Shown here piece after piece: positions 1,970 through 51,078 of a stretch of 64,000 nucleotides of DNA. Numbering within the stretch: position 1 is the stretch's first letter; every line of letters starts with the position of its first letter. The stretch comes from Aradus depressus. Its lineage: Eukaryota; Arthropoda; Insecta; Hemiptera; Aradidae. The position numbers and the translations under genes are program-made. Under the pieces are notes generated by a model. That model worked only from the letters and a program-made list of their open reading frames with translations, had not been told where the DNA came from and did no database searches. The stretch covers positions 59,351,213 to 59,415,212 of the forward strand of contig OY759215.1 of assembly GCA_963662175.1 (NCBI GenBank). Reading direction: 5' to 3'.

Positions 1970-4430
1970 CTAAACAAGTTCAAAAAATAATATCAATAAG
2001 ACAAAAAATAATACAGGCTTCTAAATAGTTTTAATGTTCGAAAACCAATAACTGGCTTTGAAAAAAGAAACAAAAATACAATAAAACTTCATTTATAAAT
2101 AAATGAACTCCATGAAAGCTTTATATTAAAAAAATATATCAATGCACAAATGCATAAGTCTGCATAATTGCATTCAGTTGCAACCTTCTTATATATAAAA
2201 GAAAGAAAAATTATGCGTTTGATTAATGGAATTCTTCTTCCACTGTGTTATATTAGAATCAGATTTTTTGTATTTCTTATTAGATCAAAAAATATATCAA
2301 AACTAAAATAAAAAAACACAATTAATTCCAGTTTAATACATTTCATAGGAGTACCTAAGAAACTGAGATGGTTAGATGTCCATCAACTGACAGGCATGTC
2401 TGAGTAAAATCGTAAAATTTTGTCAACATAAAGAGCAAAATGCAAAATTTTATATTAAAACTTCAATTTTCATGAGAGAATGATGTTGCCACCATTGAAC
2501 ACACTCGACAGACCTGCCGGGGAGCAGCAGACGTCAGCGTCAGTTTGAGAAATACTCCTTCAGGTACAAAACAATAAAAAGGGAAAAACAAGCATTTACT
2601 ATAAGTGCCAACAAATCCGCACTTCGAAGTTAGTTATTGAATAAAATAATATACATTATCGATACCTTATTGTTGACATCATATCCACTGACACTATAGG
2701 TGTACATGAGATAGGAGCCTCCCTGGCTGGCGGAGGGGGAACATTCTGCAATGTCCGGGTCGTGCTCGGAGCCCCAGTTATGACCAAACTCATGGGCGGT
2801 CACCAGGTCCGCCTCTCGGGTGATCACCCGTTGCCCATAGTGGTTACGCGACGAGCTCAGACCGGAGTTCAGGTACAGAGTGTACCCATTCTTGAAGTAC
2901 TCTATAAAGAGGGGCAAAACATTAATTAGAAATGAGGAGGAAAAAGAACTAAGAAAAGATTGATACTGTCGTCCATAGTGAAATTTCTTCTATAAAAAGT
3001 TTTCCAAATTAGATTCAAATGCAGTGAATGAGGGAGAGGGCAATAATTTGTTTTGTGTAGAATGGGAACCCTCCTCTCTCTTAAAAACCATAAATAAAAA
3101 AGGATTTTGAGCCCCAATTTCAATATGGTAGAGTGATCAAAAAACTATTCAGAGAAAAGTTTTTGGGTCGTATAAGATCTTCAAATTAGCATATCGCACC
3201 CCTTTACGATACAACAATCCTAAGATAACCATCCATGAAAACATTCTGTTCATAGGAGGGGGTCGGACACCCCAAATTATCAGAAAGTGGGGCGATATAG
3301 CACATTTTTTCGAAAGCTTTGTTCTAGGGACTTAAAAACAGATAAAGTGGCCTAATTGAACGTTTATTTTATTTGCTCCTTGGGGTAAGAATGTTAAGAT
3401 TTTTAAAAGACTGATATTTTGATATTTTTGAGAAATATCAAAAGAAAGTTAAGTTTTTTAAATTTTTATTATTAAGTATACTTTATCATGTTCCTGGGTT
3501 CCCAATTAGAGCAGAATGGTTTATTTTTTAATAAATCTAAAGTAAGTAAATTGAGCCTCCTTCCCATTGGATTTGATTTGAAGTTAAGTTATTTATGTTC
3601 ATTTTCTCATTTAGTCAATATTTAAATCAAATTTAAAAGTATCACTGAAACCATTAAAAACCGGTTAACTCCATTCTAATTGGATCCGTGATTCCTTAGT
3701 CACCACTTAAGTAAAAATTCGTGAAACAACCAAATTAGACAATACATAAAACAGTGATTGAGCCATGAATAATTTCTTGGTAGAAAAACCATGAAGGGAT
3801 TTTTCTATGCCCACGTACTGTCTATAGTCTTTAGTGCTGAGAAATCCTCCCGACACTTCAATCTCAGGAGCTATCTCTCAGGTGTGCCAACAATAAAACA
3901 CAAATCAGGCTACTATTGTACATTGTCACCGTTACTATTATTCATTTTTTCAATTTAATTAACTCTCTAATTAATTTTTATAAATTTCACATGTAGCATC
4001 CTTATAAGCCAAAAAATAGGCAATGCGGTATCTCTGAATATTGAACTGAAGGGGGGTTATGAGGGAGGGGACTAGAACATAAAATGGTTTTAGATAGAGG
4101 CAACAGGGCAAGCAGCGTTTTCCTTGGCAAAGTACGAAAAATATATTTTTTTTTTATTAGCACATCAATTTTGGTAAAGATTTAAATTAAAATTTAATAA
4201 AAAATAATTTAAATTTAATAATTCTGGGTATATGAAGAATCACAGCATTTAAAACCGGCTAGGATGTTTAAAAAAGAACAAAATAGTCCCCTTGAAGAGG
4301 ATAAGGAGGATGAGTATAATAAACGAATCGATAAACTATAATAATTACTGCAAAAAGAAATGTAATGAAGTAGTCTCTTTAAGTGGGAATTGTTGATGGT
4401 AATTTCGTAATGAAAGGTAAACTTACCATT

Positions 4431-4466
<36 letters not shown>

Positions 4467-7400
4467 GGGGGATAACATTTGAACTCGTAATGTGATCTGA
4501 ATTGGAAGATAATAATAGTAGTGGTGGTGACAATAAACGGAGAGTAGCCAAATCAGACCTGGGGTGCAGATCCCTCCGACGGAATTGCGCCGGGGAGAGC
4601 CGACATAGGCCAAGCCAAGGATCCCGCCCTCAAACTTGAGATCGGTGAAGAGGTGTGCCAGGCAGAAGTCCTTGTGCGAGTACTCTCGGGAAAATACCTG
4701 CACCACAAGCCACAACCACAAGCCAGCGTCACCCAACCATATAAACCGTCAACCCACCGTACCATTGTACCAACCACACAAGGCAACAACCCACTCTATT
4801 GAAAATTATCAAAAAGAAACAAAATATATTATTTGTCACTGCGTGTGACAAATGATGATCCAACCTGAATTGCACGAAGGCGCGAAGGAATTAAATCTTT
4901 CTAAATACCCTGGTGCTAAAATTAAGAAACACTTGAGGAAGCTCCAGTAAAACATTCCAGCCAATTGGGCGACGGCACCATTCCTACTCACTATTTTAGT
5001 GTTGTTTAATTTATCTTCTATTAAAACTAGAATTACGTGTCTAAGAAATTATTCAAAAATTATGAGAATTGATACAAAAAAACCATTCAACTTATTCAAA
5101 ATGTCTACGAAAATACAAAATTTGGGAAGACTATTTTTTTGTCAAACTTTGTTTTATAAATAAGTTTTTTTTTTATTTTATTTTTTTTTTATGTTACTTT
5201 TATTTATTCTACAATCTGTATAAACAATAACAATAAGGTGGTGAAGTGATGAGATGAGTGCAAAAGGATGAGTGACGAAAAGAGCAAAAGTTATATTTGA
5301 AAAAAAAAAAAGTTATAGTAGATATACGCTTCTGTGTGCCAATATTCGTCCAAAACAAGTCACTTAGCATAGAATGACCCGAGATTAAAAATATCGTTCA
5401 TGTTAAAAAAACATAAGTTACTGAACGAGAGACAAAGTCTCAAAAATACCTTTTGTAACAAAACCATTCGTGGGTGGCCTTGTGTGGTCATTACGAAAGT
5501 CAAGGAGTAACAGATAGAAAATAGTTTCAAGAGAAGAAAGAAAATAATATATACTCCTCATCAAAAGTATTGCAACACCCAATTTTTTCTCATTTCTTTA
5601 GGACTATGGGCAATAACTTCAACGTTTCGTAAAATAGACACCCTTTTTAATAAAACAAAACGTTTTTTACGAAAGTTAACAAAAAAAATGTAAAATTAAA
5701 ATTTTTCTTAAAAAATGGCTTGTTCAAAATAAATGTGGCTGAGGCCCTAAAACCGAGAGAATTGCCAATTAACTGAAGAATTTAAAACTGGAGAGATTAA
5801 GGATTAAGAGATTTCAGTATTAATGCAACAATTCTTAATCCCCAAACGTGGATAACTCTTGTCTTTGTTATTGAAGGACTTACTGAAGGCAAAATAAAGC
5901 AGGGGACGATTTTTATTAGAAGTAATTATTTACAGAAATATCTAGGTGTTGCAATACTTTTGATGATGAATGTATATTGTAGAACTAACTACGATTTAAT
6001 ATGATATTTTCACAATCCCACAGGAAAAGTAATGACATAACTTTCCTTGTGGGAAAGTAGACATATGATTGATAACATTATAATCATGACAACATTTGAA
6101 ATAGAGTTTACGAGTTTGTTTTTGTTTTAGAACCATTTGATCAAATAAGATCTTTCTGGAAAATGACTGTATGTACGTACTGGTATATCCGTCGTTCCTC
6201 TTATCTCCGAAACTATCGACATCAAAAAAAAATTGTTAAACTGTACTATAGTGCCAGCAACTTTCAAGCGAAACACTCAAGCTGTTTGGTTTGTTGTAAT
6301 AATTTCAGTTTTGAAATTCTAAGAATGACAAACATGTAAAAACTAATTTTCAAAAGTTTCGTTGAAAATTGGAAACTTGAATTTTCCGTATTTAGCAACC
6401 ATTATCTGTTAAGATAGCGTAGGTATATAAAATGTTGGTTTGGTTGAAGCTTTCTTACCTTAGAAGGCTCTTAAAATGATTATCTTGATGTTTTGACGAA
6501 AAATCAATTTGTTAGTTTTTATAGAAAAAAAAAATTAAATTTCAAAAATTATTTTCCTCTACACAATTTCCTAATTTTTTTATATACTGACGAGAGAGGT
6601 TCCAAAATTCCTACCAATTTTAGTAGAAATGAATTCAAAGGTTTGTTGAAAAAAAATATAAAAAAATTGAAGGAAATTTTAAAAAATAACAACAAAAAAT
6701 ATTTTTTTCAGGAAAATACCTTCTATTTAGCAGTCGGAAAGTCGAAAATAAATTTTTGCATCAGAGAAGAACTCATTGCATTTTTCAAGTGAATGATCGG
6801 CGTGAAGAATAAAAAATAATGTGGGTAGCTAATGTAAACATAAAATAATACGCAGGATACACATTTTTTTTTATGGGATTTCTAAACAAATCAGCTTATG
6901 CGCTCATCTGACCTGCGGAAACTAACACCATACTCTTAGCAAAACAGTGGGACCCTGTAGCTCCGACTATGCCGGTGCCATCTCTACTTTAACAAAAATA
7001 GGACGACTTTGGGACCCTGTAGCTCCGACTACGCCGGTGCCATCTCTACTTTAACAAAAATAGGACGACTTTGGGACCCTGTAGCTCCGACTACGCCGGT
7101 GCCATCTCTACTTTAACAAAAACGCGATAGAAATTTCCCAGGAATGATACCAATGTTGTAAGATATACCAATGGATTTGGTATTCTATGGAACAGATTGC
7201 TGTTTTTATGGAAATAAAACTGAGCTAAAATCGCGGGTACGAAACCCGCCCGAGGCCCTTAGTAGGTTTTTTTATCTGAGGGGTGAAAAAACCTTTAGCA
7301 CCCAGTCGGGCTCATGTCCACCAGAGTGACGAAAGAGCGCTCTGGTAGTAGGAGATAGGATCTCATATTCAAAGCCCGGACATGAGTCACAATAACTGTT

Positions 7401-10400
7401 TCATTTAAATCAGCTGTTTATCTACACCTATTAGGTTCAGAGAGTATTCGGCCGACTCGGGACCTTCACATCTGACTACGTCCATTCCACCTCAAATCTG
7501 ATAAAAAATCTTTAATCAGAAATTGTATAAGAAAAATTTTTGCAATGGTTAGTTTTTCGATAGGATCCCCATTTTCGCATTAACAAAGCTAACGTGTAAA
7601 AAAAGTGTTTTACCCCCCAGAGCTTTTATCCAATTTTTTCGCTATAGCTTGATCCTATCTCAGAAATCTTTCAATTTTTTTACAAAGAATATTGTTTTGC
7701 TACAAACAATACTTATAATTCCTTAAATGTCTTTTGCCATAATTACAAATTCGTCATTGGTGTGGTGAGTTAGTGTGTAGCTTAGCTCCATTCACATCGC
7801 TTCTATTTTCGCCAGATAGGTCAACTTCTCAACGGACAACTATTTTATTAGATTAACTTTAAGGGTTAGTAATAAAAAATAACACATTTATAAGTTAAAG
7901 TATGCTTAGCACAGCAAAAAATCAAACTGAAACATCCCAGAAAAATAAAAAAAGGAATAAGATTGCAAAATTGTATTATAGGTTGTTCAATAACATGGCA
8001 CTGAAGAGTTCTTTTAGAGTTAACAAGGAAGCAGAGATGTTAGCGAGAAGATAAAGAAAAATATAATAAATAAATAAATTAAAAAAATAAATAAATAATA
8101 ATTGTTGGAACCGTTCGAACAGATGCCTCCAACGGAATAGGGCCGGGGCGAGGCAATGTAGGCAAGGCCAAGAACGGTGGAGGAGCCAGTGTCGGCGCTA
8201 CGGAACGTCTGGTGGGTAAACAGGTGCGACAGGCAGAAATCACCTTCCGAAAACTCCCTCGAAAATACCTATACACAATACACATACATATTCCTGGTCA
8301 AATTGAAAACTGCATTTGGGACACAAAAAAAGGAAATAAAATAAATAAATAAAAATGATAAATAAACCTAAATTTAAATTAGAGTAATGATAATAAAGAT
8401 GAGGTCAAACGCAGATTTTTGTTTTTGACCCCACTCGATCTGTATACGCAAAATATTGTACACGTATAAATGTAAATTTCGTTAATAAACTTTCCAATGT
8501 TGTAGAATTATAAAGGAAAAAATATCCTATTAAAGAAGTGTGTTCGAGTATCTATTGTTACCGATCACAAGGTTTGAGCGGCATGAATTTTGTAAAAACT
8601 CGCATGTATTCCCATGTATGCAGAAACGGCCCTGCGTGGAAGGAAAAAGTATAAAAGAAGTGAAAAATAAAACTAACTTTCAGATGAGCTAACTATATAT
8701 ATTCTATCCTTCCTCATTCGTGAGGTATGGATCACTTCCACATTTTCTGAAGTTAGTTTCACTAGAGTCGATCCACAATTCGCAATAAACAACTCGTAAA
8801 ATACAAATGTGGGCACAATTTTTCGGATCGCACTATTCTGAACATCAGAGCGAAAACCAGCTTTGTTGGATTTTCTCCCAAATAATCTCTAACTTTGAAT
8901 GGACTAGAAAAGACAAAATGAGAAATAAATGGTTAGGCAGTAGTATGTAAGCAATGATTACCTCGAGAAGGTTGCGGACGTCCCACTTCTCTCGAATCAT
9001 GTTGTAGTGAGCTTCACCCCCGCGCACCCTTGTAGGCTCCGAGTGAACTACAATCTTCTTTATAACGAAACCCATGCCCTTGAAACCTTCATTCTCTCCA
9101 GTTCTGTCCTGCCACGTCGTGTCGTTGTAGATCTTATGTACCCGATCTATTAGACTTATCTGAAAACAACAAACTAGGTATAACGAGCAAAGAAAATACA
9201 AAGTACTAGCTGAGCCCATTTGTTACTGACGTTACATTTCCAATTCCGTGAAATGGTACACTCCTAAAGGAAAGTAATGATGATGCACTGTGACTTTGGC
9301 TCACACATCCACCAGTTGTTTTCTAGCGCTTAACAGGCAATAACTGAATAATTGTGTAAATGATAGAACAGAATCATAGATGCCTCTCTTAGCACTATCC
9401 ACTCCACTCATCAATACAAGCAGCACATCAATATGCGGCACACTTCTGTACAAATGTCTTCTATTCACTTCAATCTGGTGTGCGACAATAGCAACAAAAG
9501 AAAACTGGAGGCAACATAGGAGAGGATGGTTAGAATGATCTTGAAGGATCCCTGGTTTGTCCTCAACAGCCAGTGGGAAAGTCCCAACTCCAACAGACAT
9601 GTACTACTCAGCATCTCGACCGCCTCAAGAGTACCATTGAGACGGCTCAAGTCCACACTTCCCGAGTTATTGTTGTTAATATTTTATAAAATCTATTGCA
9701 CTTTTCCTTAAACAGTTGAATATATAATTTGTCTAATGCTCAATAAAATATGTTCTTTTCAGTTTCCCAGTATCGGGTAAGTTATATAATCAGCCATCAG
9801 AGTTTCATGTTGGTAGAGGAAAAATTGTATTTTCTGGGAGAGTGGAAACTATTACGCATAGTCCGAGCTGGGGAGGTACACTGCCGGTGATTCACGACGA
9901 CTTTTATAAATATTCTATTCTATCAGGAAATCTGAGTTCCCCCCCAGACTGAGATAGTAAGGAAGGCTACTCACAAGGTAGTTAATGGTGGTTTTGGTGT
10001 TGCCACCACCCATCTCCTGGTAGAACCTATAGTCGGCCACCAGGAGGAGCGGGCATCGGGTCTTGGTCGGCGCATACTCGTACTCAGACTGTCTCTTGTT
10101 CCGAACTTTTCCCTCAAGGTTTTGACTTGATTCCAAATAGATATTGTCTGGTTCGTCATCTTCCTCCACTTCATTAGTTTCATTCCAATCTAAAATGAAA
10201 AACATACAGAGAAGTGTGATCAGACCACACATTGAAGGGTTCCATGGGTGAATACTGTATATTATTTAATTCACATTAGTATTACATAATATAAATGCGT
10301 AACATCACATTCAATTTTTCCCCGTGAGAAGTGAGAAATAAATGAAAAACATAAAGAAAAAGCTTGCAGTTGTTATTTTCCTAGACTTATATTGGCAGCC

Positions 10401-31100: not shown

Positions 31101-34100
31101 AAGAAGAAAAAAAAGAAGATCTTTTTATCAAAAGGAGTTTCGTTGAATTTGAAACATAGAGAATAGCCGTTCTATAACGGGGAAACACAAAATAAGACCT
31201 GATAAAAAAGCAAAGCGGTTTCTTCATTGTAAAGGGGTTATCTCTAAATTATTCAAATCAGAGTTTTATAAGGACAGCTTTAAAATTAAAATTAATAAAG
31301 AACTATGTTATGAATTCTAAAAAAGATCACTTTATACCCTCATTCCATTAATTTTGTAAAATTATGACCACAACTCAATTTTTCTTCATTTAGCCCACCT
31401 AAAGAAAAGGAACAATGTTTTTAAGACATAGACAAAATTGGCTTGTAACACTCTGGAAATAGGACACTGAATAAAATGCTTCACATTTCAGATATAGATT
31501 AGTAATTAATAATATATATATATATATATTGAATACAATACAATATATATATATATATATATATATTGAATCAATACTAAGTTTTCTACTATTGTGTTTC
31601 CCAGTTTGAGAATGACATATAGGTGTTGAAAGGTAACGGAAAATAAAATAATGTGTGTATGTCACGCGGATAGTATGAATGAATATAAATAAGTTCATCC
31701 ATTAGTGTCTACTCACAATGGCCAAAAGTCTAATTAAAAGTGGATGAGTTCTGACTGCGGGTTATAAGAGAGCGGATCTAAAAACAAAAAGAATAGGGAA
31801 AAGAAAACTAGGATAGAAAAAAACACACTTAAACAATCATTTAACACTTTGAAACAATAATTGTTGTTCTTACACCAACTCGGAACATCACCCGGAGCGA
31901 TCAAAATTCCAACAACATTTTTGTCCATGGTGAAACGGTTCGGTTCGGATTGAATCACAAAATGTTCCGCACTGGATGCTCCATTCAGGATTTTTTTTAA
32001 AATATTAAATTTTGGTCGAAACCGTCTAATATGTATCTGTTGTGTCCTACCTTTCTGGGAGGAGGGACAGGGTTGGACTGGTCCGGGTGATCTGAAACTA
32101 GGGAGGCGATACTCTCTGTGGACTGTCCGTTGGAGAGGCGGGGTGAAGGGGCGGGCGGAGGAGGGCCCCGTGGCCGCTGCAGGTTACCTGCAACAACACA
32201 AAACAATAGACCAATATAACTAAGTATATACAAATAACTTCTTATAAGCTATTTCTAGTTTGGTAAAGTAGTTACTTAAAAGCACAAGCAATTTAACTTG
32301 AAGTGAAATTTCCTAATACTGATAAGTAAATACTAAGAAAATCTTAGGGGTACTAATGGATTAGTCAATCTCCCAACATATAAAATGTAATGCACCCATT
32401 GATCCATATGTTTTCAGGCAAGTTTCAGCCTTCTATCTCAATTAAAGCTGACTAAAAAAGCGATCGGCAAATTTGAAATCACCAAACCGTATTAATATAA
32501 GATACATGAATACTGAAATATCAGTTGAAAAATAATTAATATATTACCTAGATTCGGTATATTTATACATGAAGAAATTTCTAATCCAAAAAAGATATAT
32601 AAACCCATCGAAACGTTGAATATTCGTGGCATTGGCTTAGGCAGAATCTAATTATATTACAGAACCATTTATTTAATAAATGTTTATTTATAAGTACTAT
32701 TATTATCAAAAGTAGAATTCTTTATTTTTTTGAAATATGGAAAAAGTTATACAAAATACAGAAAAGTTAACAAAGAAAAATTTCATAAAAACATTTAATT
32801 TCGAAAAAAATTTAGAAACTGGTGTTCCCTCCCTTAGCTTAAATGACAGACAGCATCTGTTCTTCTGGGCATTCCCCTGATTAAATTTTGAATTACTTCT
32901 TCCGGTATGTTTTCCCACTCTTGAAGCAAGAAGTTCCGCAAATCCTCGTGTTTTGATGGGTCTTGCAAGCATGTCCCAGACATGCTCTATGGGGTTCATG
33001 TCTGGACTTTTTGCGGGCCAGTCCATTGCCACAATTTGAACTTCACGAAGGTACTGTTGAACAACAACCGTAACATGGGGTCGAGCATTGTCGATGAGCA
33101 AAAGAAATGGAGGGCCGACTAACGGGACGAAGAGCATCACATGACGTTCTAGGATCTCTCTGATATACCTGACAGCAGTTAGTGAGCCATGACCAATGAT
33201 CACTAACTCCGTAGAGGCGTTTAAATTTACGCCTCCCCACACCATCACAGAACCTCCGCCAAAACTGATTCGGGTTGAAAAAGTACAGGGAGTAAACTAT
33301 TCACCCGGCCTCCTCCACACTCGTTCACGTCTATCTGGAGACCTTAGGCAGAATCTGGACTCATCTGAGAATAATACTCGCCCCCAATCATCAGTAGTCC
33401 ACTTCAGAGGTTCGCGGCCGAATCTCAACCTCTGGACACGGCGTTCTCTGGTGAGTAGGGGTCCACAGACTTTATTGGTAATAAAATTTACTGCTGCTTC
33501 AGCAGATCGTGAAATTGTTGAAACTGAGGGAGGAAGGCGTCCTTGACCAGCGCGTCGTTGGTTTGAAAAATTCAACAGTGGAGATACGTCCTTGGAAAGG
33601 AAGAAGGGCTCAGGACGACCATCAAGGATATTGATGAGATTCTAAAGCAAGCTGTAGAATCAAATCCAATCACAAGTACTAGCGAACTTGCCAGCGAGTG
33701 TGGAGTATCGAAAGTCACCGTTAGTCGCCATCTACACGACATGGGGAAGGTGAAAAATAGCAGTAGACTTACAAAAATCGTTAAAAACCCCTTCTGATAT
33801 GAAATTTTACCGAAAGATTGTCACTTGATGAAAAGTGGGTTTACTGGCGATACCTGATACCCGTGAGCAATGGCTAGATCGGGGTCTAAATCGGGGTTGC
33901 TGCAAGGGGGCAGTTTGAAAAAAAATCCATGCTTTGCGTTTTTTGGAACTACGAAGGAGTTATTCATCACGAGTTTGTTTCCGACGGATGTTCTATGAAC
34001 GCTGAACTCTACTGCGAACAGTTAGAAAAAATGTACGCGAAATTGTCGCAGCGCTACCCAGCTTTGGCTAACCGTAAAGGAGTTCTGTTCCAGCAAGATG

Positions 34101-37100
34101 ACGCTCGGCCTCAGAATTCCTGTCGGACCAAGGAAAAGATACAAGAGCTTCATGGGATCTAATTTCTGCCATACCCACCATATAGTCCAGATCTTGCTCC
34201 GTCAGATTATTACTTGTTTCGATCCATGATTCACTTTCTTCAAGGGAAAAAATTTAATAACTTTGCAGAAGTGGAAATTGTGGTGCAAGAGTTTTTCGAC
34301 AGCCATCCCAAGGAATGATACCAGCATGGATCGAGCAACTGGCTGAAAGATGGCTAATAATGACAGTGGATCACAATGGGTTATATTTTGAATATTAATC
34401 TTATTTTACATTAACGAAATAATAATATAAATTTTTTGTTGAAAACTGTCATTTTTTTTCTATACATCCCACTAAATTTATTTATCTTAGTAATAAAAAC
34501 CCATCCAAAAATGCGGTTTGATTTAACATACAGAATGATAATTAACGGATAATAAAATAAAAGGTATCAGTAATCTTCAAGGATTTTTTTAATTAATTAA
34601 CAAATAGTGAGTTAAAGAAATAGCAATAGTAACAAATACAGTCGAAAAACATTATATTTGTTTTTATACAACATTTTTCAAATAGGATTAAGTGATAAAA
34701 CATAGTTTGAATGAATATTTGTTGTAAAATATTATAATTATTCATAAGAAAAGGGACCCTGCAGGTTGTAGTGATCATTAATGGTTCAATATTCAATTAA
34801 ACTAAACTGTTTAGCTCGGTTTGAAAGTTTAAATTGGTTTTGAAAATTTATTAAATAAATAATAGAAGGAAGTAAATGTATTTTTGCTTCAATACCCATG
34901 GCATTGGCTTAGAACACACAACTATACTATATTTAATAAATGAGGCGTCTCTTTTCAAAACCGGCCATCTCCAAAAACCTGTATTTTTCAGGAAATGAAA
35001 AAAACCTGTATTTTCATAACCGTTGTCATTATTCTCTTGAAATTTTTTTTATGATATCAGTTAAGCCAGAAATTAACGGTAAGCACTTGCAGGAATTAAA
35101 AAAAAAATTAGGTAGACAGTTATTAATTAATTAATTTTGGAGTTGGCCGGTTTTGAAACGAATTGTGTGGATATGGCCGGTTTTGAACCAAACATTTTGG
35201 GAAATTGGTAGTTTTTTGGCCATAAAATTGTTTTTTTTAGTCATTCAGTCATTCACACAAGGGAGCCATGGTGGCCATGCGGGCTAGAGCGTAGGGTTTT
35301 AGTCGCATGGTCTCACCTTGGTTTGCGGGTTCGAATCCCGTCCGGTAGTGAGTTTTACTTCGTAGATAAAACTCCCTTGGGGCCATGGATGTCGTACATA
35401 ACTAGGTAAAACACCATTATAAGAGTCATGGCTAATATGCATCGTACATGAGGCCAAAAAATAAAAAAAAATCACACTAGGAAAGTAATAAAAACTTCTT
35501 CGAACAAAATAAACGAAATTTATTCTTTTTGGTAACTGTAGTTACATTGACTTTTTTTTTGGCAACATTTATTACAACCACATGTGGTAACTTAGATTCA
35601 ATGACGAGAAAACCACCAAAAAATTAGATAAAATAAAAATTAAATAAAAAAAATTAGAGGATGTTGCCAACTTCTTGGTATAGATCGATACCAACTATAG
35701 ATCCAGAAGAAAAGTTTTAATAAAAAACAAACCGGATAACACGAGAAGAATCGACAAAAACAGAATAGATAGAATGTAACAGAGCTGTTATCAGTCAGAG
35801 CGCCCTAGCGGTCGCTGATGACAACTGGAGTTGGTCGGTTTTGTTCACAACCTTAAACTTCAACACATCATTTTATACGCCAAATGACAGTTTTTGAACA
35901 AAAAAAAATTACCATTCGATGCAGGGCATGATGAAGAATAACTTAAAAAAAAAAACTGTTTTCTCATTTTTATGGAGATGGCCGGTTTTGAAAAGAGACG
36001 ACTCAAATGTTTATTTATTAGTACTATTATTATTATTAAACCATTGTTGACAGACGGAACCCTTCGTTGTATCACCTCATCACACTTCTCTGTAATATTT
36101 AATGTTAATTTAAATAATATTATTTCTTACCTGTTTTATCAAGGCCCGTCGACTTGAGTGCAGGTATTTCTCCAGGAGGAATGACTAATTTGGCACCAGC
36201 TGAAATAAAAAAATAATAGCATTGATGATTGGTTAAAACGCACACAAAGTTTATATTTGGCGTACAAGAATGTACCATCTAGTATTTGAATACGGTATTC
36301 CGCACGCGTACACGTACACTTACGTAGGTATTATTTACAGAAAATATAAAAAGGAGGAGAGATCAGGCTTGTAGTCGATTAAAACAAAATTGTGGAATTT
36401 CTGAACTGAGTGTGCCTTCTTCAGGGCCTGCATTGACGTGTATAAATTATTATTATTACAGAGTTAATGTATCTTAGATATGAGTAAAAGACATGACATA
36501 ATTAATTTGAAGAATATAAAAACATACATCATGTCCAAAATGACTAAATCGAATTAACGAACGATGACCGGCGCCAGAGAAAGAGACTAGATTATACCAG
36601 TTTAAAGAATTATTAAAAATGGCAGAAATGATACCTTATTACTAATTTCTCATATACTTTTTTGTCACAACACTGTTTTTTTTCTTTTAATTTTCAATCA
36701 TGTCTTGTGTGAGATATATCCAGAAATGCCCCCGCTCCGTAGTTTTCGCTCTAATGTAGACATTGTGTTGTCGACAACTCTGTGCATTTTGGGGGGTGAT
36801 GGAGTGAGAAGAACGAAACCCAAACTGGTGATTGATAGATGACGAGAAAGGATAGAAATGATGCGTATATAGAGAAGTTTTTCGAAGATCTTAGAAAGAA
36901 AAGAGAGACGATAGTTCAAAAAGAAGAAGGATCATGCTCAGGTATGTTTGATTTTGGGATCATGGTGATTACAGAGTACTTCCACTGAATGGGAAGCTTA
37001 AATAAAATAACTTTTCGGAGCAATCTCTGGAGAATCTCCGCTGTTAACAGGTCACAGCCCGGGGGCTTCTTTCTAGGGAGATTAAATCTTCAAAAAAACT

Positions 37101-40100: not shown

Positions 40101-43100
40101 GTTCATTAAAATAAAAAAAACATGTTTGAGCTGGATTTTAGAAGACCTATTCAACCATGCCCAAGACACTTTAGGCGCTTTATGGCTGTGACTGACGGAC
40201 AGATAGAGCGAAATTATTAGGATTCTGTACTTCGGGACCCTAAAAATATTTCAGAGAAGTGTGGTCAGAACACACAACGAAAATACGAAGACAAGACATT
40301 CCTGCGAAGAAGTTTATAAACGGAGTGTTAAAACCAGATACAAACATTGAGGCCTCTTATGATACCTACCCTGTCTTCAATGATGGTTTCGTCGTCTGAA
40401 AAGTCCGTAGATCCGTCATCATGAGACAGGTTCCAATCCGTGTTTATATTTTCAAACAAAGATTTCTGTCTCTGAAGAGCATGCCTTATCTGAAACAGGT
40501 CAAAACAATACACATTAATTTCCAAGAAAAGCCGAGGTCTATATTTTCAGATGAGACTGGAGCCGACAGGCCGACTCTCGTCTGTATGTACGTATACGTA
40601 TTCATAATACTCAAAAATAACGGTATCGTTGTTGGAATGGATGTCAAAAGAAATAGAGGGATTACACAAGGCTTAACTCATAACCTTAATAACTACAGAT
40701 GATGAATATATCAGCATGAAATTTCATATGAACGGGCTAGGCCGGGTAATACAATTCGGTGTGTATAAATTTGAAATGGTATATATGTAGGTCTGTTCCA
40801 GCATCACGCCTAAACTGCTGATCGGATTTTCATGAAAATTCCAGCTATACTTTCTCAACATAAAAAAAAGTGTAAATAAACAGCTGTTTCAAATACAACA
40901 TTTTATTTAGACAAAAGAGAATACTCATATATATTTCAAGAAAATACAGTCCAATGACTGTTGCTAAATTTTATATTAAATTTGCTTAGAAAAAGCAATA
41001 GCATTGCAAAGACACGGAATCCGTTGGTGTAGTAGAACAACATTAAATTTGGTAACATTGCTGGAAAACTTCAATCGGAAAAGCTTTCTATAGAAGAAAC
41101 TGTTTTGCCTTCATTCTTCTTACCCACCCACATTTGTTCTTCAGAACAAAGCCAACATGACAAGGTCGATGAATATATTGCAGAAACTATTTAAATGTAT
41201 TTTCTACATCTGAATAGGCACATAATAAAAGTACGTAAACTATTGAAAACATTGTTTACTTTTTTTTTCCCTTCTTGTGGATAAATAGATATTTTTGATT
41301 GAATTGAAATGTGCACCTACCAGTTCCTCGCAGGTGCGGTGGCCCCGCTCCTGGGCTATGTCGAGGGGTGTCTTGTCCTGTGCGTTGTGTAGGATAGGGT
41401 CAGCTCCACTCCGCAACAGCAGTTTCATACATTCAGTCTTATCGTGGAGAGCTGCCATATGTAGAGCGCTGTCACCTCCCCTGTAAAAGAACAACTCACT
41501 ATGTAGCCCTTCTAATAACCAACATGGAAAAGTCATCATCAAATATCAATAAACTACTTGTCGTAAGGTTATTATGTTAGACGGTAAGAAGGTTTTGTCC
41601 ATTTTGTTTTGAAGACTCACTTCTAACTTCTTACAAAATTTTCGATCCCAGATTCCTTAATCTGCCATCATTTTGGGCGAAATAATTTTTGTATATTTGA
41701 TTTGAGCTCTTCATATGTTTTAAGTATTTGTTTTTCTCTCTTATTGGTTGTTCTCCATTCTTTGATAAGACTCACCGTTTTCACACACATTAAGCAAGCA
41801 TATAAAAATGTATATATATGAGGTGGTAATTGAAAACGGTTTTTGGAAAATACCTCGTCAACTAGACCATACATGAAACTACATATTTCATACGAAATAT
41901 GTTCTTGTATTTCCTCTACATGATTTTCACAAAACTTAATCCATGTCAATTAGAACGAGATATAAAATTTGAAATTCATGTTTTCCTCCTTTCAAGAGAT
42001 ATAATGCATATAAAATTTGTTTACGCACTACCGACTTCATCCGAAAAACTGCTACGTTGGGCCTGGTTTGAACAATCAACCTAACAACACGCAAAAATAA
42101 GTAACAAATTACAAACCGACATTTTTGGTTAGTTATCTGACCATATTCTGCTATCTCAATAAATCACTTATCTTCTAGCACCATGAAAAATTTCCGGGTA
42201 TATTACAATAATGAATTTAGAACAAAATTAGGGTTAACAAAAACAAAAGTTTTAAAGCTGCCCTGTAACGAAATTTTTATATAGACACCAGTGAGAGGAA
42301 GGGATAAGGATTGGAGTAGACCAAATAATACGACAAAATTGTGGAATTTAATCTATTTCCTACCACAAATGTTACCTAATTGATCATCACCTATATTACT
42401 TTTGTAAAAGTTTGTTGAATATCAGCAAATGTTAAGACTACTTGACTCTGGGTGAGTTAAAAAAAAAATTGAAATGATCTCCGAAATATCTGAAACCTTT
42501 CATGCCAAATATCAATAATTAAATTTAGAGGGATACATATTGTTGGTGGTTATTGAGGCGCCGCAGTGCTATGAAACAAGGTAGAGCCACGTGATTCTCA
42601 GCAATGGACCAGGAGGAAGCTCCTAAAGCTTGACGAATCCACTGCCAACGAGGTGTCTAGCATGTGTGTAGACGGTAGACCCTCTTAGTCTTGGGTGAAC
42701 ACCTGAGCTGGTCGGGCAAACCTGGGTAAAGACCCCGTACCGATCCATACAGGAGACTCCCAGTGCTGAGTCCGATGATGTATCGCCTCACCGCGAGAAT
42801 CACGATCTCATGTTTCGATTTTTGGGCCGATCGCACTACATTCTCCGTAGTAGCTTGATTGTGTGGAAAAAGTTAAAGCGAAATAAAGAAATGCTCACTT
42901 ATCGCCTTGAATGGACGTCTGTCTGTCGATGCCACTGGATGACATGTTCTGTATGAGAAAGTCCACCAAATGGAGGGAGGCTCCCATCTCTCGTATCACA
43001 GCCAGATGAAGCGCCGTCTCACCACAATCCTGACCAATAACAACAACAAATTACAATTTAGGTATAGAATACATAATTGGCGAACGCGTACGAAAACCAT

Positions 43101-45690
43101 TATATCATTATACTCCCACATGCTTCTAATGTATTTAAACATTCCTGATTTCCCCCTACTGGATGGGATTCGACCTCAGCACCGTTCGTAGCAATAATGC
43201 TATATAAATAGGTACCTTTTAAGTTGATGTGCATCTGAGAGTATTTTAATGTGTGAGATGTGCATCTGAAAGTATCTTAATGTGTGACGTAGAGTATCTT
43301 ACAAGATAGTATTTGGTCAGATAAACGTATCTTGCAAGATAACGTGGCTGATTGTGAACTATCTCGAGTTATAAACAGCCCTTCACCTGTGAAGCCTGTG
43401 ACATATATATAGTGTCGTACATTAAGAGCTATTTAAGAAAAACTGTAACAGTGCTTAATTTTAGCATATAGTTAGGACACCTTTTGTAAAGATCATGCGC
43501 ACTAGATGACAGACTTTTTTACGTTTTCTCCTTACTCAGTAGACATAATCAATTTAGCTCATGTTGATAGTGGCCCGAGAAGGGCGAGGTGGACAAGGAA
43601 CTGATAACGTCAAGAAATTGATACTTCTATTTATATGGACAACATCAACTAAAAAATACATTTTATTTTCTAGCTCGTCGTTTTTATAAGTTCAAAGCCC
43701 GACATTGAATTTGTTTCGAGCTTTGAACGTTGGGCATCTTATCGGTTCTAAAAATCATAAAGTTGCATATCGGGTTTGGGAAAAGTGGTAAGTCCTTGGA
43801 TCGGACAATGGCCGAATTTACCCTATGTGCCCAACTAACAAGATTAAGTGGATGTTACCGATGTGGGTAGTGGGGCGCCTAGGTCGGCTCCCTCTGCAAA
43901 CACCTGGAGCAGGTGGTACAGGTTCTTGTTGTTGACTGCATGTTCCAGGTCCGAGAGAAGGTCATGCTCGTCTGCACACGTCTGCATCGCATACTTCTTA
44001 TCAACGTACTTGGCACGGATGAAGTCGTATCGCTCCTCCCTAACAACAAACATCTTGATACTTAAAAAAAAAAAAAACGGTAAAAAATAAATACAATGCT
44101 ATGCATTATAGTAAGAAATATTTGTAATTAAACAGAGTACCCTAGGGCAGCGGTACCATTAAATGTTCTGAAATACTATATACACTGCTCCACAAAAAAA
44201 CTCTGAAAAGTTGATTTTTTTGTCGTAATTCTTTTTTGTTTGGATCAAATATTGTTTAGCATGTATAAACAGGTAGGGAAACTATAGAAGAAATTAATCC
44301 TCCCTGTATTTGCTATCCAGGCTTTTGAATCATTGATCCTTAAAAGTCGAAGTTTCGATAACAAGATAATTCTCTGTATTTCGCATCTTTCTCAAGTTTC
44401 CTTAACGATTTTGTCCGAGAAAGATTTGTTCTTGTTAAATTAGTAATGAGACCTGAGTAAGTGGCCCGTGCTATCGCTCTGGTGGAAGATGGGCGTAGTA
44501 AGCGTTACGCGGCGCGTGCTTTAGGTCTGCCAGAAACAACAATCCGAAGAGCCATCCAACGGTATAGGAAGACAAGGCAGTACACAAAGAGGCAGGATTC
44601 CGGTCGATCGAGAGGCACTTGTCCGCATAACGAAAGATGTTTGTTGGTCCACACGGTAAGGAACAGGTTTTCAACTGCTTCAGAGAGTTCCCCAGAGACT
44701 CCGTACTGTCCGTGGAGTGGAAGTGAGTGCCGAGACAATATGAAGAAGACTGCAGGAGATGAACTTAAGACCCAGGAAGCCAGCCTATGGGCCTCTTTTG
44801 ACCGCAGACTACCGAAGAACGCGTATGGAGTTTGCTAGAGAGCACCGTAATTGTACGGAAGAAGATTGGAGCAACATCCTCTTCTCAGATGAGTCCCGTT
44901 TTGCTCTCCATAGTCCAGATGGTCGACTCTATGTCTACAGGAGGCCGGGTGAACGGTACGTTCCGTGCACCAAGACCGGAAGAGTCAGGAGGCGGGTCTG
45001 TTTTGGTGTGGGGAGCGATATCTTTACAAGGAAAGACAGACCTCCACATTTTCAACCAGGCATCAATGAACGCTGAATTGTACCTAAGAGAAATCTTACA
45101 TTTTGTGGTGTCATGTCCTACGCTCCGTTCATTGGTGAAAATGTTATGCTAAAGCATGATAACGCAAGGCCCCATTTCGCTGCGTGTGTTATGCAGTACC
45201 TACAAGAAGTCGGTATTCGACCATCAAGTGACCAGCTCGATGCCCGGACTTAAACTCGATCAATCACCTTTGGGGCGAGCTTGGACGACATTTGAGGAGA
45301 CGTCATGACCCTCGCTGCAGCTTAGCAGAGATAATAATTGCTCTGGTAGACACCTGGGAGAGCATACCCCAGGACACCCTCAAAACCTCATATGGAGTAT
45401 GCCAAGGAGGCTAGAAGAAGTTCGTCAGGCAAGAGTGTTACAATAAAGTACTGAAAACAAATGTACTACAAAAATGTAAAAACATAAGCAAAATTTAATT
45501 TTTTTTATTTTTGACCGTATTTTTTTACATTCATTTTATTTAAAAAAAAAATTTCTTTAGTTTTCCAAGCATTATAATTTTTCTTTCCTAATTGCATATG
45601 AAATATGCTGCACTCTCCACTATATTTGATCCAAAAAAACAGAATTACAACAAAAATTAAATTTTCATAGTGCGACGCGGTTTTGTCGAG

Positions 45691-45747
<57 letters not shown>

Positions 45748-48700
45748 CAAGTATACAAGCACTGAATAAATATTTATATAAATCATATACATGCGCTCCA
45801 ACACATACGTGAACATCGTAGCTTAGTTGTCACATTCAAATATATATAATTAAGTGCTATTTGTTATTTGTCAAGTAAACTAGAAATTCATGTCCAAAGA
45901 TTAACAAGTATTGAAAAATATAGAACAAACTTAATGAAGAGGTACGTGTGCTTACATGTTACATACTTAAAGTTTACAAATTAGTTCAACATTCACAAAA
46001 TATAGTACATTTGTCTAATAACAACCCAGCATAAAAATTAACGATTCTCCCACATAAAAAAGAAGTTAAATCGAAAAATGGAGGTGGTTAGTGCATTAAC
46101 ATTTATATGATCAGAATTTATAAAGTCACTGAAGTGAATTTCGTGCTAACAAAGTACTAGAGAACATTTAAGTCGGGCAACTGTTGGGTGCTTGAGAGAT
46201 CATAATTGACAGAAAATGTGGAAAGGAGCCCCCATTACACTTAAAAAATATTAGACATGCGTGATGAGGAATGTAATACTTACATGGAGGAGGAGGGTGT
46301 AGGTTTAGCGTTATGGTGGAGTGTGGCCTCCATGACATCATTGAAGCCCTGGTTGGTCATATGACGTGCCAACAGGAGCTGTGAGGTGCCCAGATGATCC
46401 AGGGTGAGACTCTGGATACGGGAGATATGAACCCCCAGGTCTCGGTGAATACCCGAACATTCAATGCACACCACCACACCAAAATTAATACACAGCCATG
46501 TCGTATCTACAACAAACACAAACAACAATTACAATAAACTGAGTATACTTTTAGCAATAATAAAAATATAACAGGGAAGGGCTTGCATAGGAATAGCCTT
46601 TAATGGACTAATAGGTTTCGTAGGTTTCAATTTTTTACTACGCATGTTTAAATTATATGATCTTAAAAATATACTGAATATTAAAAAAATTAAATGTACA
46701 AACATGGCTAAGAACCATCTAGCAAATACCAGCTTTTGAAACAAAAAAAAAACGCTTTGAAATCGGTTCAGCCGTCTTGGAGCTACGATGACACAGACAG
46801 ACACACACACTTCAAAGAAAGGGCTTCAAACGTGTAACATCCCTCCTTTTGCGTCGGGGATTAAAAATAAAATATAAACTGAAGCACGCCATTTTTCGGA
46901 TGAGTCGTTAAGCGATGGTCCTGAGCCTGTACGATGTCAGGTACTCGTTAAAGACGCCTATCCCAGGTGAATAAAAATTTGGGGTAGACAAAATTTAGGA
47001 CTCCGCAGTAGAGTCGGCCTCATGTCCACCAGAGTGACCAAAGAACGCTCTGGTATTAGACGATATGAACTCGAAGTTAAAGCCCGGGCATAACTTACAC
47101 CATAACTAATTAACACCATCTCACTCAAAATTGAGAACTGGTGCAACACTTGGAAAATTACACCAACACAGACAAATCGCAACACATAACATTTACACTA
47201 AGATGAGATGCCGCTGTTTTTATCTACAAAACGCCCCTCCCTTAGACTAACACCGTGAGTTATTTAGTATTTAGACTAACTGTCATGGAACCCTCACACA
47301 CGACACCCGTAATAGACTAAACTAACTACTTAAAATGATTTACTCCCTTTTGCATAGTCATTCAAAATTACCCCTAAAACAAAAACGTAACAGATACACA
47401 TTCCTACTCAAACCACTCCGGATATATGGTCGGCTGAAACATGTTATCTGGAATGTATCCATGTTTTTCAGTCAAAGACACTCACGACTCATTACACAAT
47501 GCCCAGCGTACATAAGCATCAGAACACTCCACAAGCAATAATCTCAAGATAAACATTACCATTTTGAGAGTTACAGTCGGCGCACCGGTCATTGCTGGGG
47601 ATTCTCTGAATGTGCCTGATGATGGCCTGCTGGAGCTCAAGCAGGCTGGGGTTGGTGGTGCCTCCCGAGCTTGACTTGCTCCCATCGTCGAAAGCCTTCA
47701 GCAGCGCCCCCTCCTTGCAGTTCACCAGCACCGACATCCAGGCACGCTGATCGTTCTCATCCTCCGCTTGGAAGTGATAAGTACGATTGTCTAGAGTGGA
47801 GGGATACAACAACTGTTAGTGATGGTGAACACAAAATGTGTTGCTATATGTACCTGGGAGCCTTCCTTTGGTGATAAATGAAAAGTATGGCGACCGGTTT
47901 CGGGAGATGTCTCCCGATCTTTAGTTCTTGACTGTCTGACTGGCAGTACCGGTCGCTGTACTTCGTACCTCAAAAGAAAAAGATAAACAGGAGCGAAAAA
48001 TCATTATAAATAAAATTGTAGGGGGTGACCGACTACCACATTTTTGAAAACTATTGGGATCTTATTCGTTCCAGGTAGAACAAAGACTGTCAAGTGGTTT
48101 TTAGATTTCTTATATGTTTGTTTGTTCCATCTATACAGGAAAATGGCTGATCACATTTCAACCAAAATTCATATTTTGAATCTTTTGCCTATTCAGGAAT
48201 AGGTTTTAGGATGCATATGATTTTCAGAGTGTGTTTGTGGAGTAGAGCCAAAAGCCCATTCGGATGGGGGAGGGGTGGGCAAAGCATCTAAGTCCTAATA
48301 GTCGGATCAGAAAGCTTGGGAGATACCTAAAAATAGCTGCAGTGCATCTAATGAAAAGTCATAATCCTTGGGGTCACATAAGTATACCCTAGATATGCCT
48401 AATATATTCGTGGGTCCCCAATACTATCCACACATACTTTTTCATTTAACTGCTGCCCAACTTTTACATGATCATCGTATTTTTTTTTTTTCAAAAATAT
48501 ACGTGAGAGTCTACAATAGAGGATGTCATACAGTAGCAAGTTCTTAAGCCTGTACATAAAGTGGTCTTAGCTTAGGGCCGATATTAATGAAAATTTAAAT
48601 GGCTTGAAAAATATTTGCAAATGTGTTGAGTATCAAAGGTCAATACTGGTTAGGCGGAATCAAATCTGTAACAACTGAATTCAAAACGAAGGTTATTTCA

Positions 48701-51003
48701 TTAGGAACATTTCATGTTTACTTTGGTACTACGAAGATAGTAAAAATACGTACATGAGACGAGATCGAAGCAACGCTTGTCTTCAGGTACGAGTTTTATC
48801 TGGCAGGTGAGCAGATTGACCCGGACGGGAGGTTTGGTCTCGTCCCCGTGGCAGATGTCGAGGAAGCCATCTGCCTGGACACAGCAGCGGCGTTTCTGCC
48901 AGACTCGGCGCATCTTTCCCTCGGACTTCTTGAGGAGGTGGCCGGACCGGGTGAGGCCCGCCCCCTTGTCCCCTTGCAGCTGGTGCAGCGAGTAGCCTGC
49001 TCCCTTCTCTGGGGTATGGCCCATCTACAACAAGAAACACATGTTAGTTGTTGCTAATTTTACCTCTCTGAGAGCATGCACCGAGCATTGATGGTCGAAA
49101 TTTCACAACTAACATCCTTATAAGGCCGGTTCAAACACAGGTATAAGGCATCTCAATATGATGAACGGGAAGGGGGGGTCCAAAAATATACTTAATAATC
49201 TGTATAAATAAGTTACAATATTAGGTGTGAGATAAGTTCATTCACTAACCAGGAAATGAAGAGCTCTTTTATAAGAAGTAATAACAAAAAACAAAAACTG
49301 TAAGTAAAATCATAAAAGCGCTGTCTCGCAATGTTCATTATTTATATTTATTAAGTAACAAAAAAAAATACACTGATTTATATATACTTTATATAAATAA
49401 TTGCCTAATGTGTGTTTGTCTTTCCATACCCTCCACAGGCCCCTAGATGTCCTATAAAGTTGAACTTTGAAAACGTGCAGTATAGACCATAGTATCCTGA
49501 TATTTTTCGGAGGGTTGTCTGGAGTACAAAACATGAAATTAGTATAAGCTTTTCAAAGTTGATAAAATGTTCATGAAATTTCACACTTAGCAACCTTCAG
49601 AAAGCTGGTTTAAACATAGGCTACGTGGCACCTCAACATTTTGAACGGAGGGGGAGTTATGAGGGGCCCAGAACATAAAATTACTCTTAAACGCTGGATG
49701 ATATTTTCATAAGATCTCACACCTAGTAACAACTTCTAAGTTGAGGAACGCGGACATATTGTGGAAACTTGTAATAAATAAATAAAACAAACTTATTTTT
49801 TGAAATATTGTCTATTCCACTAAAGATTTTTAGTGGAAAGATCTTTAGTGGAATAGACAATATTTCAAAAAATAAGTTTGTTTTATTTATTTATCACACC
49901 TAATAGTTCAGTTTAAACAAAATATTACTGCTAGCTTTGAAAGATTGATCGCACACCCACGAAACTTGCAGGGCATTTCAAGGATGGCCCAACTTATTAC
50001 ATATGCTATATGGTTTCTCAAAATATTTGAGGTTGGTTTGAGATAAAGTTAAACAATTTAACATGATCACAGATTTAACAGGATCACAGGTACGAAACTC
50101 AGTCGAGGTACTTAGGTTTTATATCTGGGATGGTTCCGAGCCTGTGCCATGTCAGCTACTCGTTAAAGTACCTTACCCCTACCCTACCCTAGGTAAAATA
50201 CTAGCTATGGTGCCCAGCAATGCTCGGTACATACTAGCTGTGGTGCCCAGCGCTGCCTGGCTCATACTTGTTGGGGTGATGGCGATTGCTCAGTTTTTTC
50301 CTTATACATACATTGAGTAGCGCATGATCTAAAAGGGTTTATCAAGGACTATTAAAAAAAAAAAAAATCTGAGTAGAAAAACTTATTAAAGTTGAGGGGT
50401 GGAGTTTAGTTCAAATGGATGGACTACTGGCAAACTAAATTTTCTTTTTTGAAGAGGAGTGGGAGCTCCAGAATTTCTCCAATTTCATATCGCTTCTATC
50501 AGTTTTTAAGGAGTAGAGCAGGCCTAGAAGGGAAAAGATTGTTTTTTTGTCGACATCTTGCAGCACCGCTCAACGTAATGATATAGGAACGAGGTAACCT
50601 CCCTTTGTTGTTATCCGTGTTGTTATGTAATCAATAAAAATTGCAACGCCATGAACGTACTATATATCGAAGAATGGCCTAGATGATAGTCAGTTCCCCG
50701 GGCAACACCGGGTAATACTGCTAGTTCAAATAATAAATCAGATTTTATGGCGGCAACATTTGGTGTCAATAGGCACAAACATGTTAAATGAACAGCCCTG
50801 CCAACAAAGGTAGAGGCGGAGAGAAACCAAAGATAGAACATTAGCATACTGACTCATGCACAGTGAGTAATGATCGTTCAAGGCGAATTTTAATCAGATC
50901 CTCCCTCATTTCTGATTGCGAGACATTGTGGGGCCACCATAAATCAAAGTAAAGATGTTGGGATCTCTCCCATCAGACTTTACTTAAACGACTGGTAAAA
51001 AAT

Positions 51004-51078
<75 letters not shown>

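Follow-up and report, generated by a model that had tools for sequence, protein, structure and literature searches.

Two homologous exons for the active-site rim of Tace in Aradus depressus, a constrained pair with likely mutually exclusive use

The minus strand of a 64,000-nucleotide stretch of the genome of the hemipteran Aradus depressus (assembly GCA_963662175.1, contig OY759215.1, positions 59,351,213 to 59,415,212; hereafter the window) carries a Tace/ADAM17 gene, in which two homologous exons, A (8112..8268; 157 nucleotides (nt), namely 52 codons and one base) and B (4559..4697; 139 nt, 46 codons and one base), encode one and the same segment of the catalytic domain. The pair is a genuine one, of considerable age, and evolves under constraint. 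With a probability of about 80%, A and B represent an old tandem exon duplicate in insect Tace, of which a working mRNA takes exactly one, with A being regulated and its isoform an altered sheddase. As judged from the sequences compared, insects in general very probably put the two exons to mutually exclusive use, and Aradus depressus probably does so as well. Such use had been proposed in a first-pass annotation made from the letters of the window, which knew of no such system for ADAM17; in agreement with this, no description of Tace/ADAM17 as a case of mutually exclusive exons was found in the literature searched, which lacked most subscription papers.

Frame, homology and constraint of the exon pair

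Exons 2-12 of the gene are visible, exon 12 being cut by the window end, and encode a prodomain, a catalytic zinc motif and a disintegrin part, as in ADAM17/TACE of animals, from which this Tace differs by having two versions of one catalytic segment. With either exon version the best match in the PDB is ADAM17 (E 4.7e-40 and 1.1e-35), whereas ADAM10 matches more weakly, and exon 9 (2666..2901, minus strand, like all Tace features given here) encodes the zinc motif HExxHxxGxxH, which together place the gene in the ADAM17/Tace family. Outside the variable exon, the closest of 154 proteins compared are those of Cimex (91% over 388 aligned positions), Nezara (89% over 487), Halyomorpha (89% over 502) and Rhodnius (87% over 503).

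Exon 7 (8962..9159) ends in phase 0 at the donor CTCGAG/gtaatc and exon 9 requires one carried base, while exons A and B have phase (0 to 1) and boundaries in common and both have lengths of 1 mod 3. Joining exons 7-A-B-9, 7-B-A-9 or 7-9 leads to an early stop in each case, so that the coordinates, strand, phase and frame arithmetic of the first-pass annotation, with exon 7 ending at 8962, exon 9 starting at 2901 and early stops upon use of both exons or neither, are confirmed. Its estimate that about half of the residues are identical was too low, as 29 of 46 aligned residues (63%) agree, while the six-codon insertion that it described in one of the exons is indeed present, in A.

Agreement between A and B is 33/46 at first, 37/46 at second and 22/46 at third codon positions, and the dN/dS check that had been proposed, computed here between the copies, yielded 0.20 (nonsynonymous distance dN 0.28, synonymous distance dS 1.37). 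When neutral drift from B to A was simulated from the B sequence, with all base changes equally probable and without indels, the observed identity was kept without a stop in 0 of 5000 runs at 0.69 substitutions per site, which is half of the synonymous distance, in 1 of 5000 at 0.5 and in 5.6% at 0.3. A plain neutral pseudo-exon is ruled out by dN/dS and by this simulation, the low-divergence exception (0.3 per site, 5.6%) being at odds with the synonymous distance, and an assembly or haplotype duplication is ruled out by the 63% protein identity and the near-saturated synonymous sites. The GC content of A and B is 0.57 and 0.59, compared with 0.32-0.33 in the surrounding introns. In the 698 Mb assembly, the exon A protein matches only A (E 1.1e-29) and B (E 1.6e-9), both within the Tace gene, and no third copy of the segment was found with this query; chance resemblance is therefore excluded, and the same two matches speak against a second Tace copy as far as an exon A query can show.

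In the portions of the reports that were available, known mutually exclusive tandem-duplicated exons (PMC3228551, PMC5740500, PMC9741552) are, like A and B, adjoining homologues of like length with equal phase and boundaries, in which use of both or neither breaks the frame and a similar fold is kept with altered sequence; in the Tace pair, moreover, both copies are intact and constrained. The Tace pair is set apart from the examples in those portions by its location in the rim of a sheddase catalytic cleft and by the very weak donor of one copy.

A-type and B-type segments in other animals

Two protein searches gave 140 distinct proteins that were classified for segment type (40 A-type, 90 B-type, two with both in one gene model and eight with neither). 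The search with exons 7-A-9, for which the best 120 of 461 proteins were listed, contributed 29 A, 90 B and one A-then-B protein (Kerria lacca), and the search with the exon A segment alone returned 42 proteins, of which the 20 new ones comprised 11 A, one A-then-B (Blattella) and eight of neither type (four from molluscs, one each from an annelid and a hemichordate, and two others). A single segment type is present in 130 of the 140 records, and the two gene models with both have them in a row. Records of other insects thus show A linked to exons 7 and 9 with B absent, and B linked with A absent. The protein database was clustered at 90%, so that both forms from a given species tend to fall into one cluster, for which one representative is displayed.

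The proposed test of loss in sister lineages gives a divided answer. On the one hand, named A-type records span six orders, namely Ephemeroptera (Ephemera), Orthoptera (Anabrus), Blattodea (Cryptotermes, Blattella), Thysanoptera (Megalurothrips), Hemiptera (Nezara, Graphocephala, Homalodisca, Nilaparvata, Lygus, Ranatra, Cimex, Cyamophila, Metopolophium, Kerria) and Coleoptera (Tenebrio, Phaedon, Diabrotica, Photinus, Sitophilus and Onthophagus, among others). On the other hand, it was not seen in the flies, moths and wasps listed: within the best 120 of 461 proteins, the A-type is absent from 63 named records (27 Diptera, 28 Lepidoptera, 6 Hymenoptera, 1 Trichoptera, 1 Siphonaptera). That flies, moths and wasps lack A is likely rather than proven, because of the 90% clustering and because the best 120 matches were listed. 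The B segment is identical to that of the window, letter for letter, in 83 of the 90 B-type records and one or two letters off in the other seven. Exon A of Aradus has 52 intact codons and is 79-80% identical to the A segment of Nezara.

Several A records carry the title isoform X1, X2 or X3 of predicted genes, so that automatic annotation already contains the variants implicitly. Six A-type proteins, with frames of 731-744 residues (P0009, P0026, P0037, P0106, P0131, P0135) lie on contigs of 2.4-4.3 kb, and their source label, lgn, is taken by us to denote assembled sequencing runs. In the species behind these six proteins A is very probably spliced to its neighbouring exons, because a gene that spans more than 12 kb in Aradus is unlikely to yield such a frame unspliced; P0131, which resembles the second ladybird protein described below, may be a processed gene copy in place of a spliced transcript. 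The Lygus and Graphocephala A records may, we presume, likewise derive from transcriptomes.

Ladybirds appear to have split the A and B forms between two genes. In Coccinella, a B-type Tace (P0119) is accompanied by a further Tace-like protein that carries an A-type segment (P0128); the two are 59.8% identical (416/696) and are listed on contigs of different length, and the relatives of P0128 in Harmonia and Henosepilachna are 83.5% and 78.5% identical to it. This second type of protein, approximately 60% identical to the Coccinella B-type Tace, is represented by P0128, P0130, P0131 and P0127, from ladybirds and one further source. As a separate observation, P0129 from the annelid Owenia fusiformis apparently has two such segments chained, perhaps reflecting an independent exon duplication in annelid ADAM17.

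In a tree of 56 segments, built from 49 columns only, the B segments of insects form a single clade (support 98/88) that also takes in three other proteins, including one from krill. The motif HLFTHQ is present in 31 of 33 A segments, 7 of 16 segments from other animals and none of 7 B segments. The segment is 46 residues long in B, 44-46 in other animals and 47-53 (mostly 49) in A, and the insert before LGLAY in A is lacking in B and in the 16 other-animal segments. A may thus retain older motifs in addition to its insert, with B as the newer form, although so few columns (49) can do no more than suggest this polarity.

Splice signals and regulation of exon A

The first-pass annotation had described both exons as undamaged, which is correct for the coding sequence but overlooked the donor of exon A, ACG/GTTCCA (gttcca at 8106..8111). 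With a vertebrate matrix, on which all donor scores given here are based, this very weak donor scores -2.8, compared with 4.2-12.6 for the other ten donors scored in the gene, among them that of exon B at 4.16. Its GT sits exactly at the homologous position, and it is directly followed by a U-rich tract (8046..8105; 41/60 T) whose T content was reached by 2 of 6394 sampled 60-mers, a sample that includes the region of exon A itself. Upstream of A lie a further U-rich tract of AUUUA type (8312..8378; 41/67 T, reached by 25 of 6394 sampled windows), a competing AG (8310..8311), whose use brings the exon 7 reading frame to a stop ahead of exon A, and the acceptor AG (8269..8270), preceded by a UG-rich, pyrimidine-poor stretch. 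The two U-rich tracts coincide with a pair of 71%-alike, AT-rich stretches (8040-8091 and 8315-8366) that flank A, which may be one duplicated element or plain low complexity. Exon B is preceded by a G/U-rich tract (4698..4800; 80/103 G or T, a content that 2 of 6390 sampled windows attain) with five GGTTG within 100 nt. The pyrimidine fraction next to the acceptor is 0.50 for A and 0.55 for B, but two of the ten other acceptors have values as low (0.45 for exon 5, 0.55 for exon 11), hence the acceptors alone do not set the pair apart.

According to the part of the study available, TIA proteins promote weak donors that lie before U-rich tracts, the fly counterpart being Rox8 (PMC2766253). A weak donor with an adjoining U-rich tract, the sequence hallmark of a TIA-1/Rox8-dependent donor, is found at A, a likeness known here from the sequence of one genome. 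Exon A may accordingly be read in two ways, either as a regulated non-default exon or as one that is failing in Aradus depressus; it has the appearance of an exon that stays silent without an activator, while a failing exon is possible in this species. In the regulated case, B would be the default exon, because its donor is usable, whereas A should need an activator because of its very poor donor with the extreme U-rich tract, the competing upstream AG and the poor acceptor. The activator would most likely be a U-tract binder of the TIA-1/Rox8 type that recruits the U1 small nuclear ribonucleoprotein (U1 snRNP), or a tissue-specific AUUUA binder of the ELAV/FNE type. Exclusivity would then rest on the regulation of A combined with the loss of frame-shifted mRNAs, since the 3.4 kb between the exons makes steric blocking unlikely.

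Two other modes of exclusion were considered. Steric exclusion between A and B is unlikely with the exons 3414 nt apart, and a search for competing RNA structure gave eight inverted pairs, mostly AT-rich, from which a selector pair is not callable with one genome. In insect Dscam1, clusters governed by RNA structure likewise have one of several homologous exons chosen, according to the accessible part of the source (PMC8042237), but Tace differs in having two exons and inverted repeats that are mostly AT-rich.

Several observations weigh against regulated, mutually exclusive use in this form. The poor donor of A in this species counts against efficient use, it is outscored by 67.7% of the 3525 GTs on the strand, and no better in-phase donor was found within 250 nt downstream of A except one scoring 1.0 behind an in-frame stop. 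The flanking signals are known from one genome and lie amid low-complexity AT-rich DNA, and sequence change is much faster in A than in B (median identity of 63% for pairs of A segments, versus the 83 of 90 identical B segments). A is not resolved as one clade in the segment tree, where A monophyly is not rejected by the approximately unbiased test (p-AU 0.48). The A and B forms of Cryptotermes differ slightly outside the exon and are listed on contigs of different length; a recent gene copy is possible there, which makes this termite weaker as a splicing example. The proposal of mutually exclusive use is thus strongly, though indirectly, supported by the frame logic, the constraint, the A-only and B-only proteins elsewhere and the A-type frames on short contigs, and is held back by a donor that appears too poor for efficient use of A.

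That exon A functions in other insects and is failing in Aradus, with a donor decayed beyond use by U1 and a frame not yet broken, is improbable but carries some weight: the gap between -2.8 and the 4.2-12.6 of the other ten donors would be expected, and loss of A does occur, given the 63 named records of five orders without it (best 120 of 461). Yet the GT is retained at its homologous place, all 52 codons are intact at 79-80% identity to Nezara A, and the exceptional U tract after the donor is a known setting of assisted weak donors in the available part of that work (PMC2766253). Much less probable still is that A acts as a poison or terminal exon, tuning the dose of Tace through a truncated protein or an mRNA marked for decay. 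The reading frame does continue 30 codons past 8112 to a stop, adding 30 residues upon read-through of the weak donor, and both the shift caused by A plus B and the use of the upstream AG end in stops as well, but neither the protein-level constraint on A nor the linkage of A-type segments to exon 9 that proteins of other insects show would be expected of such an exon.

The active-site rim and possible consequences for shedding

The variable segment corresponds to approximately residues 322-367 of human ADAM17 (counted back from His405). Residues in contact with ligands are Gly346, Thr347, Leu348, Gly349 and Leu350, of which Leu348 and Gly349 bind inhibitors through their backbone, while Thr347 and Leu350 border the non-prime site, as given in the available part of a review (PMC12491190). 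The placement of the segment at the active-site rim, as originally suggested, is borne out by the alignment to human ADAM17 and by these contact residues. LGLAY and both cysteines are common to A and B, which differ at the residues that match 346 and 347 and in the preceding loop, the site of the insert of A.

A first structure model of an A-type leafhopper protein was poor within the segment; a second matches ADAM17 catalytic chains, with template modelling (TM) scores by target mostly of 0.86-0.91 (1bkc_E, 0.91), although its predicted local distance difference test (pLDDT) is below 50 at insert residues 340-343. Isoform A would probably be an active sheddase whose preference for substrates or inhibitors is altered, because the differing residues and the insert directly precede the strand of ADAM17 that hydrogen-bonds the ligand, and a change of substrate specificity through segment A is plausible. 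If use is mutually exclusive, the switch might instead change inhibition or partner binding (TIMP, prodomain, iRhom) and not substrate choice, which we consider less likely than not. The retained LGLAY core would allow the catalytic core to be unchanged, the second leafhopper model also matches ADAM17 structures titled with TIMP-3, prodomain and iRhom (3cki, 8snm, 8snl), and the rim of ADAM17 presumably touches TIMP; the present evidence fits this option and a change in substrate choice alike.

ADAM17 is a central sheddase, and what sets its substrate choice is still open. If regulated, mutually exclusive use of A and B is true, the naturally paired rim variants, retained next to each other over much of insect evolution, would provide a ready-made test for the roles of the rim strand and loop, and insects with both versions may make two differently shaped Tace forms. 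A was not seen among the listed records of flies, moths and wasps (best 120 of 461), so that work in those models would miss it. A wider scenario, offered tentatively and with less than even confidence, is that one gene has made two Tace enzymes with differing cleft rims since early insects. A would have kept the invertebrate rim motifs (HLFTHQ, AYIASP) and gained its insert, whereas B would be newer, shared with crustacean-like proteins and then frozen; A would be switched on in certain cells via the U tract, redirecting shedding (e.g., of Notch, Eiger or receptor substrates), and would have become a gene of its own in ladybirds, while its loss in flies, moths and wasps would explain why it escaped notice.

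The remaining visible exons, numbered as in the first-pass annotation, are exons 2-6 (12913-12775, 12051-11951, 11652-11531, 11065-10942 and 10189-9975) and exons 10, 11 and part of 12 (1969-1862, 945-845 and 189-1). The intron between A and B contains a 62-nt unit in three tandem copies (6937-7122), and no RNA family reached the gathering threshold in the window. An adjoining gene on the minus strand (41240-55698) has ankyrin repeats at 41243-41545 and by eye resembles an ASAP-type Arf-GAP, its presumed Arf-GAP piece (47522-47815 and 55384-55698) being without a Pfam match. Tc1/mariner-type transposase remnants lie at 32706-34162 and 44461-45152 (Pfam DDE_3 and Transposase_1, with HTH_Tnp_Tc3_2 slightly below the cut-off).

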